Assembly: GCA_913047365.1 (NCBI GenBank) | Contig: CAJWUK010000008.1 | Location: 1 to 32,799 of the forward strand | DNA length: 32,799 nt | Source of the DNA: an uncultured Alphaproteobacteria bacterium | GTDB taxonomy: Bacteria > Pseudomonadota > Alphaproteobacteria > MPNO01 > UBA830 | Direction: 5' to 3' | Shown: piece after piece, positions 23,485 to 31,531 of the stretch | Layout of the letters: the number at the start of each line of letters is the position of its first letter | Numbering within the stretch: position 1 is the first letter of the stretch | Program-made: the position numbers and the translations under genes | Notes under the pieces: generated by a model | What the model was told of the DNA's origin: nothing | Databases searched by the model: none | Seen by the model: the letters and a program-made list of their open reading frames with translations, nothing else

Positions 23485-25072
<1,588 letters not shown>

Positions 25073-25147
25073 TTCCCGGGTTCCTATTTTGTAGAGTTTT
25101 CAGCGAAAAACCGTTGCGTTCGTTGATAAAAACGGCGTAGTAATAAA

Positions 25148-25167
25148 CGTTAACTCAGATCGTTAAC
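25148..25167. repeat. CGTTAAC repeated twice in the ilvC-leuA gap
   Basis: CGTTAAC occurs at 25148-25154 and 25161-25167. Because GTTAAC is its own reverse complement, the pair is both a direct and an inverted repeat, with start-to-start spacing of 13 bases. It could be an operator for the leuA leader transcript. It is unusually AT-rich for the gap. Confidence 0.3.
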
Positions 25168-25174
25168 AGTTGTC

Positions 25175-25387
25175 ATGCCCCGGCTGATCTATACGGTACT
25201 GCCGAGCATGAAAAACCGTATCGGACCCGCTTTTTTGAGCGAAACAACGATGATGACGAGAGACAGCAACGCTATTTCGGTTGACTCCACAGCATTGGAC
25301 TCTGTGGTGCAGTTGGGTTGCGCGTTGACGGCGACTGCGCTGCAACTCTCCTTCGGTGATGGGGCTCTCCGACTTAGGTGCCCCTGA
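25175..25387 (+). CDS. Possible leader ORF of leuA
   Basis: An open frame of up to 70 codons in the 400-base gap before leuA, ending TGA at 25385-25387. In-frame starts are also possible at 25208 and 25250, none with a convincing ribosome site. The last 33 residues contain seven leucines (for example LRLRCP at the end), spread rather than in a run. The ORF does not resemble a protein I know. Its interest is its end: the stop lies inside the nested stem structure described at 25371-25443, so a ribosome finishing it would sit on the structure's left arm, the arrangement of an attenuation leader. It may equally be a chance frame. Confidence 0.25.
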   Translation: MPRLIYTVLPSMKNRIGPAFLSETTMMTRDSNAISVDSTALDSVVQLGCALTATALQLSFGDGALRLRCP

Positions 25388-25443
25388 ATACGGCTGCAAA
25401 TTTCGCAGCTCTGTTTGGGGGACAAGTTTCTAACACCTAGGTC
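25371..25443 (+). promoter_or_regulatory. Nested stem structure in the leuA leader (candidate cis-regulatory RNA)
   Basis: Three nested pairings can be drawn. The outer stem is GACTTAGGTG (25371-25380) with CACCTAGGTC (25434-25443): ten positions, one G-U. The middle stem is CCCC (25381-25384) with GGGG (25417-25420). The inner hairpin is GCTGC (25393-25397) with GCAGC (25405-25409), loop AAATTTC. There is no T-run after the outer stem, so it is not an intrinsic terminator. It ends 17 bases before the leuA ribosome site AGGAG. The rest of the 25073-25472 gap holds only the CGTTAAC repeats and the possible leader ORF. Confidence 0.5.
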
Positions 25444-25472
25444 AAACACGAAGAGACACGAGGAGCTCTCCA

Positions 25473-27038
25473 ATGAGCGTCAACACCGAAGCAACCACTA
25501 CCTCAAATAACGTCATAATATTCGATACCACTTTGCGCGATGGCGAACAGTCGCCGGGCGCTTCGATGAATCTGGACGAAAAACTCCGCATTGCGGAGAC
25601 GTTGGAAGAAATGGGCGTAGATGTGATCGAAGCAGGGTTTCCCATCGCATCAAACGGCGATTTTGAAGCCGTGAACGAGATTGCCAAGTTGGTGAAAAAC
25701 TCTACCGTGTGCGGACTGGCTCGTTCCGGTCGTGGTGACATCGAACGCGCGGCCGAGGCATTGAAGCCCGCCGCTAGGTCGAGGATTCATACCTTCATTG
25801 CGACCAGCCCTCTCCACATGAAGTACAAGCTTCAGATGGAGCCTGATGAGGTCTACCAGCACGTAATCGACAGCGTTTCCCATGCCAGGAATTTCACGGA
25901 TGACGTCGACTGGTCTCCGGAAGACGGAACTCGATCCGATCACGATTTTCTTTGCCGCTGCGTTGAGGCGGCGATCAATGCGGGCGCGAGCTGTATCAAT
26001 CTCCCTGACACGGTGGGGTATTCCGTCCCCACAGAATTTGGCGGTTTGATCAAAATGTTGATCGAACGGGTGCCGAATAGCGATAAGGCGATTTTCTCCA
26101 CTCATTGCCACAACGACTTGGGCCTCGCGGTTGCCAATTCACTGGCCGGTGTCGAAGCCGGCGCCAGACAGGTGGAATGCACGATCAATGGTCTTGGCGA
26201 ACGTGCTGGCAATGCGGCTTTGGAGGAGGTCGTGATGGCCTTGCGTACTCGGCCTGACGCGATGCCTTATTCCACAAACATCAAGACCGAGATGATTACC
26301 AAGGCCTCTCGCCTCGTTTCGGCGATCACAGGCTTCACGGTCCAGCCCAACAAGGCGATTGTTGGTGCCAACGCATTTGCCCATGAATCCGGCATCCATC
26401 AGGACGGCATGCTGAAGAACGCGAGCACCTACGAAATTATGACGCCCGACTCTGTCGGTCTGACGGAATCAAAGTTGGTGTTGGGTAAATTGTCCGGACG
26501 CGCGGCATTTCGCGAAAAGCTGTCCGAGCTTGGGTATAACCTGGGCGACAACGCCTTTCAGGACGCTTTCCGGCGGTTCAAATCACTTGCTGATAAAAAG
26601 CGCGAAATCTTCGACGAAGATATTTTGACCCTGGTTGATGACGAAATCGTACGCGGCAATGATCGGATGCAGTTCGTTTCGCTGCAGGTGGTCTGCGGTT
26701 CCGAGGGCCCTCAAACGGCTGAACTGACCCTCGAAGTGGACGGCGATGCCAGGAAAACCAAGGCAACCGGTGACGGCCCCGTAGATGCGACCTTTAATGC
26801 AATCAAGGAGTTGACCGGATACAACGCGCGTCTGCAGCTTTATCAGGTGCATGCCGTCACCGAGGGTACAGATGCCCAGGCGGAGGTAACCGTGCGGCTG
26901 CAAGAAGACGGCAAAACGGTAAACGGGCAGGGTGCTGATACTGACACGCTAGTCGCTTCAGCCCGGGCCTATATTAATGCGCTGAACAAGTTGCTGGTGA
27001 AACGTGAGAAAACGGCGCCCAGTGCGCTTAGTGCTTGA
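25473..27038 (+). CDS. leuA: 2-isopropylmalate synthase
   Basis: The first committed enzyme of leucine synthesis: condenses acetyl-CoA with 2-oxoisovalerate made by the ilv genes upstream. It has 521 residues, the long form with a regulatory domain. Seen: [16 protein letters not shown] (about 17-32) opening the TIM barrel, the metal ligands HCHNDLGLA (about 210), [15 protein letters not shown], and [14 protein letters not shown]. The C-terminal LeuA dimerisation and leucine-binding domain (about 400-505) includes [24 protein letters not shown] seven bases before ATG is a strong ribosome site. A 400-base structured gap separates it from ilvC, suggesting its own leucine-related control. mreB follows after 83 bases. 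Confidence 0.97.
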
Positions 27039-27106: not shown

Positions 27107-28162
<1,056 letters not shown>

Positions 28163-28258
28163 GAGCGTCCGGAGTTTATTTGCGTTTCGTTAACGGCCTA
28201 CAACTGATTTTTTGGCGGCATTCCGGCAGAAGGCAGATGGTCGGATCGGAGGAAATTT

Positions 28259-29143
28259 TTGAAATATCGAGCTGAATCGGTTGCAAAGGTCACGGGATCC
28301 GCCCGTGCCTTACTCAACAGGTTTGCTCTGCTGTTTTTCATCATCGCGGCATTTGCGATTATGATGCTCGGTAAAGCGGAAACTGTTGCAGTGGAACGCG
28401 TGCGTGCGGGTGTGGTGGATGTCATGGCACCGGTAATGGCGGCGTTGTCGCAACCAATCGTAACGGTTTCGGCCGGCTTCGACCGCCTCGAAAATTTCTT
28501 CAACGTTTATGAAAAAAACGAACTTCTTCGCCAACAAAATACCAGGTTGCTGGAATGGCAAAGCGCTGCGCTGGCACTCGCGGCAGAAAATTCGACTTTC
28601 CGAAAAATGTTGAACTTCGTCCCCGAACGAGGTGTCTCATTTTCTACAGCGCGGGTTATCGGTGATTCCGGTGGCGTGTTTGTTCGCTCGGTGCTCATTA
28701 ATGCTGGCAGGGTGTCGGGTATTGAAAAAGGTGATGCAGCTGTTACCGGCAGCGGCCTAGTCGGACGGGTCGCGGTATCTGGCCGGCAATCCGGCCGAGT
28801 TCTTCTGATTACCGACCTTAATTCGCGTATTCCCGTTGTTTCCGAGAAAGAACGCCTGCGAGCAATTCTTTCAGGGGATAACAGCAACAGCCCAAGGCTT
28901 TTATTCCTGCCTCCCAACGCCCGTCTGTCAGTCGGAGAACGTGTCGTTACTTCCGGCCACGGTGGGGTTTTTCCGGCTGGCCTTCCGGTTGGAACCATTT
29001 CCAGCATGGAAGGCGGTGCGATCCGGATTCGGCCATTTGTCGACTTTGATACCCTGGAGTACATCAGAGTAATCACGGAATTTCCGGGTGAGGTCGCAGG
29101 ACACATCGTTCCCTCTAACGCAGCGACTTCCCGCGTGAAATGA
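28259..29143 (+). CDS. mreC: Rod-shape protein MreC
   Basis: A bitopic protein that links MreB and MreD to PBP2 and activates it in the periplasm. It has 294 residues. The TTG start at 28259 has GGAGG six bases upstream. Seen: short cytoplasmic N-terminus, one membrane span (FALLFFIIAAFAIMMLG), a coiled coil (about 80-115, KNELLRQQNTRLLEWQSAAL) and the beta-barrel domain with VFVRSVLINAGRVSGIEKGDAAV, GLVGRV and VLLITDLNSRIPV. ATG of mreD overlaps its TGA. The 96-base gap before it holds nothing else clear. Confidence 0.95.
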   Translation: MKYRAESVAKVTGSARALLNRFALLFFIIAAFAIMMLGKAETVAVERVRAGVVDVMAPVMAALSQPIVTVSAGFDRLENFFNVYEKNELLRQQNTRLLEWQSAALALAAENSTFRKMLNFVPERGVSFSTARVIGDSGGVFVRSVLINAGRVSGIEKGDAAVTGSGLVGRVAVSGRQSGRVLLITDLNSRIPVVSEKERLRAILSGDNSNSPRLLFLPPNARLSVGERVVTSGHGGVFPAGLPVGTISSMEGGAIRIRPFVDFDTLEYIRVITEFPGEVAGHIVPSNAATSRVK

Positions 29144-29661
29144 TAAACGCGATCTTCCAGCGGCTGGATCGATCGGCCCGACTGGTAGCACCGTTTTTCC
29201 TGAGTGTGTTTTTCGTTCTGTTGTCGGCGCTTCCCGTTCATTTGCCTGGATATGGCCAAATAGCAATGGACGTTGGCCTGATGACGGTTTTCTATTGGGC
29301 AATCTACCGCCCTGATCTGTTTCCCGCTTTTGCTGCCTTCGCTCTCGGTCTTTGGCAGGACATACTCGTCGGGGATCCGATCGGGCTTCATGCATTGATA
29401 CTTCTATTGGCCAACTGGGCCATCGTGTCCCAGCGAACGTTTATTCAGGGTAAATCCTTTGGCGTGATCTGGTGGTCGTTTTCGCTTGTCGCGTTAGCTG
29501 CCAGCATTTTGTCCTGGATAATTATTTGTGGACTGAACGTCACACTGGTTAGTCCCATGCCAGTGCTATTCCAGGCAGTACTTACCGTCGGCGCTTTTCC
29601 CTTCATGGCATGGATTCTCGCGCGAACGCAGCATGTAATTCTAAAATCGGCCGATGTATAG
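29140..29661 (+). CDS. mreD: Rod-shape membrane protein MreD
   Basis: An integral membrane protein of 173 residues with about five hydrophobic segments (for example LVAPFFLSVFFVLLSAL and SFSLVALAASILSWIIICGL). Sequence conservation in this family is low. The call rests on length, hydropathy, the PDLFPAFAAFALGLWQDILVGDPIGLHAL segment, which fits the MreD pattern, and on its fixed place between mreC and the PBP2 gene. It overlaps mreC by four bases and mrdA by eight. Confidence 0.92.
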   Translation: MINAIFQRLDRSARLVAPFFLSVFFVLLSALPVHLPGYGQIAMDVGLMTVFYWAIYRPDLFPAFAAFALGLWQDILVGDPIGLHALILLLANWAIVSQRTFIQGKSFGVIWWSFSLVALAASILSWIIICGLNVTLVSPMPVLFQAVLTVGAFPFMAWILARTQHVILKSADV

Positions 29662-31531
29662 AGACGCAACCCGGTTTAAGAGATTTACGCGGCGTGTCGC
29701 GCTTTTAGGGGGCGGGAAATTTGTCCTTCTCAGCCTTCTTGCGGGCCGGATGTACCAACTACAGGTCATCGAATCTGACAAGTACAAAACATTGGCGGAG
29801 GAAAACCGGATCAATCTGCGGCTTTTACCTCCGCCACGCGGCAGAATTCTGGACCGGTTCGGCCGTCCCGTGGCCATCAATCAGGAAAATTACCGGGTTA
29901 CGCTGGTTGCCGAGCAGGTAAGCAATGTCGAGGACCTTCTGGATTCTCTGTCGGGGATACTTTCCCTAAGCGATCATGAGCGGCAGAGAATTCTCCGAGA
30001 AGTGCGGCGACGTAGAGACTTTGTTCCCATTACTGTGCGCGAAAATCTGGAATGGGGCGATGTGTCCCGAATCGAGGTTAATGCACCAGATTTGCCGGGA
30101 CTGTCGATTGAGGTTGGTCAGAGCCGTAAGTATCCCTATGCCAGCGATTTTGCCCATGTGTTGGGTTACGTCTCCGCAGTTTCCGAAAATGATGTGACAG
30201 GCGATCCGTTGCTCGAACTGCCGGGTTTCAAGATCGGAAAGAACGGTGTTGAGCGAGTCTTCGATCTCAGCCTCCGCGGCAAGGCCGGTAACAGTCAAGT
30301 CGAGGTGAACGCCATGGGGCGTGTTATCCGGGAGCTTTCCCGTCAGGAAGGCCAGCCTGGAGATGACATCAAATTGACCATCGACCGGGATTTGCAAAAA
30401 CTGGCGGCTGACCGGCTGAAACAGGAAGAAAGTGCGGCCGCGGTTGTGATGGATGTCCACAATGGCGATGTGCTCGTGCTGTCGTCGGTGCCGGGTTTTG
30501 ATCCCAACCGGTTCGTTACGGGTCTCTCCTCCCGCTCCTGGCGGGAGTTGCTGAACGACCCCAGAACGCCACTAATAAACAAGGCGGCATCCGGTCTGTA
30601 TGCGCCCGGTTCCACATTTAAAATGGCGGTTGCTCTTGCGGCCCTGGAAGCCGGGATTGTCGATCAGGATCACGAGGTATTTTGTAGCGGTCACACGCTA
30701 CTCGGAAACACCAAATTCCATTGTTGGGAGAAACATGGTCATGGCTGGCAGGATATGCTGGACGCTCATCAGAATTCCTGCGACGTGTACTTCTACGATA
30801 TCGCCACGCGGGTCGGCGTTGATCGTATCGCCGCCATGGCTAACAAGCTGGGCTTGGGTCGTAAAACCGGTATTGCTTTGCCGGGGGAAAAGAACGGCAC
30901 TATCCCCACAAGGGCTTGGAAAAAGGCGGCTCTAGGCTCTTCCTGGCAATTGGGCGAGACGCTTATCACAGGGATCGGTCAGGGTTTCGTCCTGACCACT
31001 CCGTTACAATTGGCTGTCATGACGTCCCGGCTGGCAAACGGAGGCTTCGCGGTTACGCCGAGGTTGGTCCGTCCACAACTTGACGACGGCCGCTCCGCCG
31101 ATCCGAAGTTTAAGCCAGTAGGAATTTCCGATCGGGCGCTTGATATTATTCGTGAAGGCATGACCCGGGTAACCAACGTTCAACGTGGTACCGCCTATAG
31201 CGCCCGCATCTCCGACAAAGGTATGGAGATGGCTGGGAAAACCGGCACTGCACAGGTGCGCCGTATCAGTAAGGCGGAGCGAGAAACACGTGTTCTTAAA
31301 AACCATGAACGTCCCTGGAAGGAACGTGATCACGCGTTGTTTGTCGGATACGCCCCAACCAAGAATCCCCGATACGCCGCCGCCGTTGTCGTCGAGCATG
31401 GCGGCGGCGGGTCAAAGGTTGCCGCGCCGATCGCCCGCGATCTGCTAAGGGCCACTCAAATGCGCGATCCGTCCGGTAGCGACGCAGTGCCCAACGACGA
31501 ATTTCTGCCGTCGAAAAGCGAAGAGGCCTGA
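29654..31531 (+). CDS. mrdA: Penicillin-binding protein 2 (elongasome transpeptidase)
   Basis: A class B PBP that crosslinks new peptidoglycan along the side wall with RodA. It has 625 residues. Near the N-terminus is a membrane anchor (ALLGGGKFVLLSLLAGRMYQLQVI), then the PBP dimer domain beginning NRINLRLLPPPRGRILDRFG. In the transpeptidase domain the nucleophile is Ser320 in APGSTFKM. The second motif is S-C-D in HQNSCDVYFYD, the SxD form seen in PBP2 rather than SxN, and the third is KTGTAQ. The start overlaps mreD and rodA follows after four bases. Confidence 0.97.
   Translation: MYRDATRFKRFTRRVALLGGGKFVLLSLLAGRMYQLQVIESDKYKTLAEENRINLRLLPPPRGRILDRFGRPVAINQENYRVTLVAEQVSNVEDLLDSLSGILSLSDHERQRILREVRRRRDFVPITVRENLEWGDVSRIEVNAPDLPGLSIEVGQSRKYPYASDFAHVLGYVSAVSENDVTGDPLLELPGFKIGKNGVERVFDLSLRGKAGNSQVEVNAMGRVIRELSRQEGQPGDDIKLTIDRDLQKLAADRLKQEESAAAVVMDVHNGDVLVLSSVPGFDPNRFVTGLSSRSWRELLNDPRTPLINKAASGLYAPGSTFKMAVALAALEAGIVDQDHEVFCSGHTLLGNTKFHCWEKHGHGWQDMLDAHQNSCDVYFYDIATRVGVDRIAAMANKLGLGRKTGIALPGEKNGTIPTRAWKKAALGSSWQLGETLITGIGQGFVLTTPLQLAVMTSRLANGGFAVTPRLVRPQLDDGRSADPKFKPVGISDRALDIIREGMTRVTNVQRGTAYSARISDKGMEMAGKTGTAQVRRISKAERETRVLKNHERPWKERDHALFVGYAPTKNPRYAAAVVVEHGGGGSKVAAPIARDLLRATQMRDPSGSDAVPNDEFLPSKSEEA

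Follow-up and report, generated by a model that had tools for sequence, protein, structure and literature searches.

The 400-nt gap between ilvC, which ends at position 25072, and leuA, which starts at 25473, contains a leader whose reading frame and stems recur upstream of leuA in distant relatives of the window, the 32,799-nt stretch of DNA from an uncultured alphaproteobacterium that was analyzed here. Comparison of genomes indicates that this leader is a widespread conserved element found over much of the Alphaproteobacteria, and it probably serves as a leucine-responsive leader-peptide attenuator of leuA, acting most likely at translation initiation. The ten-position outer stem, the CCCC/GGGG stem and the inner hairpin that the original prediction had placed in the gap were all recovered by sequence and folding (Table 1), and the frame with seven leucines in its last 33 codons, ending at a TGA at 25385 inside the structure, was likewise found as described. 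In the window, the outer stem (P1) comprises 10 positions including one G-U pair, and the CCCC stem (P2) contains three G-U pairs; relative to dinucleotide shuffles, folding gave z = -2.35 for 25250-25472 and z = -3.59 for 25073-25500. Elsewhere in the window lie the gene for a permuted tmRNA of the alphaproteobacterial kind, at 110-443 on the minus strand, and a cell-shape cluster at 27122-31528, with mreB after leuA and a gene for penicillin-binding protein 2 further on.

Table 1. Features of the ilvC-leuA region, in coordinates of the window
Feature	Position	Strand	Basis
ilvC (upstream gene), ketol-acid reductoisomerase	24053..25072	+	NCBIfam TIGR00465
Leader ORF, 45 codons plus stop, MMTRDSNAISVDSTALDSVVQLGCALTATALQLSFGDGALRLRCP*	25250..25387	+	start by comparison with L012, L015
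Proposed P1 outer extension GGGGCTCTCC	25361..25370	+	duplex prediction; weak in the window's own ensemble
Further conserved Leu codon CTC, two codons upstream of the sensor	25367..25369	+	Leu there in 97/107 relatives
P1 5' arm GACTTAGGTG, overlapping the last leader codons	25371..25380	+	folding, duplex tests
Sensor Leu codon CTT, then A, 8 nt before P2	25373..25375	+	CTT in 101/107 relatives
P2 5' arm CCCCTGAATA, with the stop TGA 25385-25387 inside	25381..25390	+	folding, covariation
Apical hairpin GGCTGC/GCAGCT (arms 25392-25397/25405-25410); sequence varies among relatives	25392..25410	+	folding
P2 3' arm TGTTTGGGGG with G-U pairs; TCAGGGG in most relatives	25412..25421	+	folding, comparison
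P1 3' arm CACCTAGGTC	25434..25443	+	folding; pairing probability 0.99 in the free state
Probable leuA Shine-Dalgarno GAGGAG	25460..25465	+	sequence
leuA, 2-isopropylmalate synthase, LeuA1 type, 521 aa	25473..27038	+	NCBIfam NF002087, TIGR00973

At the DNA level, a search of relatives found this stretch matched in other families as well, and a pattern scan of named genomes returned at least 120 hits; among the 80 loci listed, which include Gluconobacter, Acetobacter, Asaia, Bombella, Caulobacter, Geminicoccaceae and Micavibrio, leuA follows directly in all 77 for which enough DNA was present. To counter the bias of the pattern, we sought leuA itself in 386 Alphaproteobacteria genomes and read 148 upstream regions from searches of the class and the order. 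In 107 of these 148 regions a leucine codon followed by A begins exactly 8 nt upstream of a stem with 7 bp or more. This count is a minimum: among the 41 regions that were not called positive, some have the motif but with a stem that is shorter or interrupted (e.g. L231, L238, L025 and L030), and others apparently lack the element (e.g. L016 and L033). The latter two belong to the window's own order, and one of them to its own family, and in both the leader before leuA is seemingly absent. A covariance model built from the sensor codon and P2 was run on 398 genomes across the phylum and matched 97, of which 96 are alphaproteobacteria with one match each, and it matched 138 of 386 genomes in the class; its single match in the window's genome was the window locus, and the 30 best matches of the phylum scan all precede leuA. 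Three matches (L374, which lies outside the class, L369 and L375) were set aside as chance, having no leuA behind them and lying in or beside long open frames. The conservation of stems and frame among relatives, which the original prediction had proposed to examine by aligning leuA upstream regions and by covariance analysis, was found to go far beyond chance. At the gathering score, no Rfam family was matched by the window, ten relatives or eight leaders of the LeuA2 type, and no earlier description of the alphaproteobacterial leuA leader was found in the literature searched, which covered few subscription papers, so that a prior description is possible.

In the window the frame is open from the ATG at 25175 to the TGA at 25385-25387 and ends in ...GALRLRCP-TGA; its start is more likely at 25250 (ATG ATG ACG) than at 25175, to judge from comparison with L012 and L015. 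The sensor codon varies only to CTA (5) and CTG (1) among the 107 relatives, the codon between the two conserved leucine codons encodes R or L, and in 99 of the 107 a stop (UGA in 83, UAG in 10 and UAA in 6) stands exactly 12 nt past the first base of the sensor codon. Leucine accounts for 31.8% of the 11 codons preceding the sensor in this frame and for 8.2% and 2.9% when the other two frames are read (p<1e-16), and the share of CTT among leucine codons, 10% in leuA bodies, is 34% in the leaders even when the sensor is left out. The leader peptide matched no known protein family. These patterns indicate that the leader reading frame is real in evolution.

The C-terminal ...LRLxxP* is common to many groups, and a proline before a stop slows release, so one might suppose that a nascent arrest peptide (RLxxP-stop) stalls the ribosome at termination and senses leucine directly. 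We consider this highly improbable, as the arginine is replaced by leucine in 32 of the 107 leaders and the proline by leucine in 7 with the stem kept (e.g. L241 and L256), and the stop has moved in 8. A +1 frameshift at CUU-A (a CUUAGG-like site) was also considered and rejected, because in relatives with CTAA (L269, L274 and L281) the +1 frame runs into a stop, and this frame can moreover close early (L094).

Covariation argues that P2 is a true RNA stem. There were 37 cells in which both sides of a pair had changed, and none of 500 shuffles gave a value as high. Since a stem of at least 7 bp was the rule by which the 107 leaders were selected, the percentage of paired cells is inflated, but the rule does not explain the compensatory changes, which occur at several pairs. 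Examples are CCCCTAAACA/TGTTTAGGGG in L240, CCTCTGAACG/TGTTCAGAGG in L241, where proline becomes leucine, CCTCTAGGCG/CGACTAGAGG in L256, and CCCCAAACGG/CCGTTTGGGG in L232 and CCCCTGGCCG/GCGCCAGGGG in L270, in both of which the stop is shifted downstream. Because such variants change the stop and the final proline while the stem is kept, neither a stop at its usual place nor this proline is essential. In six leaders of the Acetobacteraceae type (L070, L077, L090, L093, L107 and L137), a second CCCCTGAG (CTCAGGGGAACCCCTGAGG) directly follows the 3' arm of P2 and could form a competing hairpin.

Throughout the class, P2 almost always carries the sequence CCCCUGA, found in 80 of the 107 leaders, and this constancy is more than pairing alone would demand. 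This raises the possibility that the leader RNA is a binding site for a regulatory protein, as has been proposed for the actinobacterial LEU element (PMC1262725). We regard a protein site as quite improbable, given that the stem sequence can be wholly changed with the same geometry, as in Ochrobactrum (CGGTCGCCAGG) and Microbacterium (CCGCGACGAG), that leucine codons are selected in frame, and that an isoleucine codon takes the sensor position before threonine ammonia-lyase genes (see below).

Pairing of the leader with the start region of leuA was assessed by duplex prediction in 106 leaders from the less biased set in which leuA itself was sought, which superseded a set of pattern-selected loci. 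The predicted duplex between the last leader codons and the spacer had an energy of -16.4 kcal/mol, compared to -12.4 kcal/mol with spacers of other species (p=2e-14) and -11.8 kcal/mol with shuffled spacers (p=6e-16), and the best 3' arm of P1 overlapped the Shine-Dalgarno core in 58 of the 106. In the window, the outer extension GGGGCTCTCC could pair with GGAGCTCTCC at 25462-25471, over the leuA Shine-Dalgarno. Across the class, pairing of the Shine-Dalgarno with the leader was 0.377 compared with 0.226 in chimeras, although in the ensemble of the window itself it was 0.0016. In these models, P1 pairing between the end of the leader ORF and the leuA start region is stronger than when leaders are combined with the spacers of other species.

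We also estimated the cost of opening the leuA ribosome-binding site (RBS), which was 12.95 kcal/mol in natural leaders and 10.55 kcal/mol in chimeras (p=2e-8). When the sensor codon was treated as occupied, the cost fell by 2.67 kcal/mol, compared with 0.98 kcal/mol in chimeras (p=1e-5), whereas occupation of the stop codon lowered it by 1.81 kcal/mol. Blocking 20-50 nt upstream of the sensor codon lowered the cost by 2.41 kcal/mol on average, and since this is almost as much, the predicted effect does not depend on the sensor codon in particular; the control is itself not neutral, as the blocked stretch is leader too. In the window, the cost fell from 16.4 kcal/mol in the free state to 11.3 kcal/mol with the sensor codon occupied. 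In three of four contexts, the free ensemble leaves the Shine-Dalgarno of the window fairly open (0.73), and it showed no opening upon stalling in the ensemble prediction, so that here the wider RBS measure is the one that agrees with the model; likewise, the gain in openness of the Shine-Dalgarno alone did not differ significantly from that of chimeras (p=0.15).

In the mechanism that we infer from these features, the leader ORF would be translated and the position of the ribosome would set the access to leuA. When leucyl-tRNA is plentiful, ribosomes would pass the leucine codons, stop at the UGA and leave, after which the last leader codons would pair through P1 with a stretch reaching up to, and often including, the leuA Shine-Dalgarno, with P2 holding the two arms of P1 together. 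When leucyl-tRNA is short, a ribosome would wait at the leucine codons with its body covering the 5' arm of P1; as the last of these codons lies exactly 8 nt before P2, the stem would sit about at the mRNA entry of the waiting ribosome, and with the 5' arm covered, the leuA ribosome-binding site would open. The original prediction held that the ribosome governs the outer left arm, which agrees with this arrangement, and that it does so while resting at the stop, which does not: stalling at the leucine codon 12 nt earlier is likelier because the stop has moved in several leaders with the stem kept (L232, L249 and L270).

The layout of a leucine-rich leader ORF whose stop falls within a hairpin is also that of classical transcription attenuation, in which the position of the ribosome would choose between P1/P2 and an intrinsic terminator. 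A minority of leaders are indeed U-rich after P2, with at least 5 T in 8 nt in 14 of 107 (expected 5.7) and at least 6 T in 7 of 107 (expected 1.6). However, of the features of a classical attenuator, the leader peptide with regulatory codons is present while a conserved terminator of hairpin and U-run was not found: a T-run of at least 5 occurs in only 4 of 107 spacers (expected 7.6), and no intrinsic terminator was found on the plus strand of the window, in keeping with the missing T-run of the original prediction. Furthermore, the pairing is specific to the RBS region. We therefore regard transcription attenuation as unlikely, and control at the level of translation as the likelier since the U-run is missing in most leaders. 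Another rival is Rho-dependent termination within the leader, controlled by where the ribosome on the leader ORF stands; it has been proposed for terminator-less leader peptides of cys operons in Actinobacteria (PMC1262725), and most leaders leave the spacer of about 52 nt (median) between P2 and leuA untranslated. It would not, however, require the conserved pairing of P1 with the RBS region, and it appears quite unlikely. The comparative evidence, namely the leucine codons in frame, the fixed distance, the stems and P1, favors leucine-responsive control without a U-run and possibly at translation, as had been predicted.

The same leader was present before LeuA2 genes in six genomes without a LeuA1 match (L372, L373, L376, L379, L380 and L381). 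The LeuA2-type proteins behind it are 26-28% identical to the LeuA of the window, and its presence before this unlike family suggests that the leader follows function. In genome G379, a second match of the covariance model precedes a threonine ammonia-lyase gene. Leaders of such genes in five genomes of one genus read CGA ATT NNN CGC CCC TGA, with isoleucine at the sensor position (L371, on the reverse strand, and L383-L387); the ATT emerged unprompted in G379, whereas in the other four genomes it was part of the search pattern and the Arg codon and the downstream gene were not. A scan of 260 genomes for other amino acids at the sensor position gave only four matches, of which one was a leuA leader read in antisense and three are candidates; no variant like the one before threonine ammonia-lyase was recognized elsewhere in these genomes. 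The restriction of the leader to leuA and the isoleucine sensor codon before a gene of the isoleucine pathway further favor the leucine reading.

If this reading is correct, one RNA-level rule for leucine synthesis, absent from the RNA-family library, would apply to a large class that includes symbionts, industrial strains and marine bacteria. The fixed distance between codon and hairpin, the exchanged codon in the threonine ammonia-lyase leaders and the placement of the leader before two unlike LeuA families would make the sensed amino acid predictable from a single codon change, which is directly testable.

Two well-known systems resemble the leader in part. The enterobacterial leu operon attenuator (leuL) has a leucine-rich leader peptide before leuA and alternative stems; the alphaproteobacterial leader shares the leucine-rich peptide before leuA but has no conserved terminator, its stem reaching the leuA start region instead. 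In translation attenuators of the ermC type, a ribosome stalled in the leader ORF frees a sequestered Shine-Dalgarno, whereas here the signal would be a shortage of charged tRNA-Leu rather than an antibiotic, and no arrest peptide would be needed.

The closest likeness is to the LEU element of Actinobacteria, in which a leader peptide precedes leuA, leucine codons pair with the leuA Shine-Dalgarno and a pseudoknot is formed (Seliverstov et al. 2005, PMC1262725). Both the position upstream of leuA and the leader ORF with a run of leucine codons are found in the alphaproteobacterial leader. In addition, the leaders of Nocardia, Tsukamurella, Microbacterium and Nonomuraea have a stem of 10 bp or more whose first base lies exactly 8 nt beyond that of the last leucine codon, as in the window; this distance is a feature that we noted, outside the published definition of the LEU element, in four of the four actinobacterial leaders looked at. 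It recurs in Rhizobiaceae, Ochrobactrum and Cupriavidus campinensis, whose stems differ completely in sequence (actinobacterial, rhizobial and Cupriavidus loci L392-L395, L401-L403 and L407-L410), while the same scan gave no convincing match for LeuA2 genes of Klebsiella, Acinetobacter and Burkholderia. Since only this distance was sought, the scan shows that it is available, not that other distances are absent. We would tentatively propose, at somewhat less than even confidence, a modular kind of translation attenuator spanning Alphaproteobacteria, Actinobacteria and some Betaproteobacteria, in which the leucine codons would be the anti-Shine-Dalgarno strand, the last of them exactly 8 nt before a hairpin of free sequence, and in which the sensed amino acid could be reset by a codon swap, as in the isoleucine-type leader of one genus.

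There are also differences. The pseudoknot of the LEU element, between the loop and a downstream stretch, was not detected in alphaproteobacteria: in 106 leaders the duplex of the P2 loop with the spacer was -14.6, compared with -14.1 for mismatched partners, and the candidate was rejected for want of any excess. The stem reads CCGCGRCG in Actinobacteria and CCCCUGA in alphaproteobacteria, the stop lies 21-27 nt beyond the last leucine codon in the actinobacterial frames rather than 12, and the actinobacterial leuA genes read here are of the LeuA2 type while that of the window is LeuA1. Mutations in the comparable leuA leader of Streptomyces were reported to depart from what classical attenuation predicts (PMC1262725), which counts against an attenuator model. 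If the preferred reading of a leucine-responsive attenuator holds, it would link the Alphaproteobacteria to a little-studied actinobacterial element whose mechanism was left open in 2005. We do not class the alphaproteobacterial leader as a member of the LEU element, but it would work like one.
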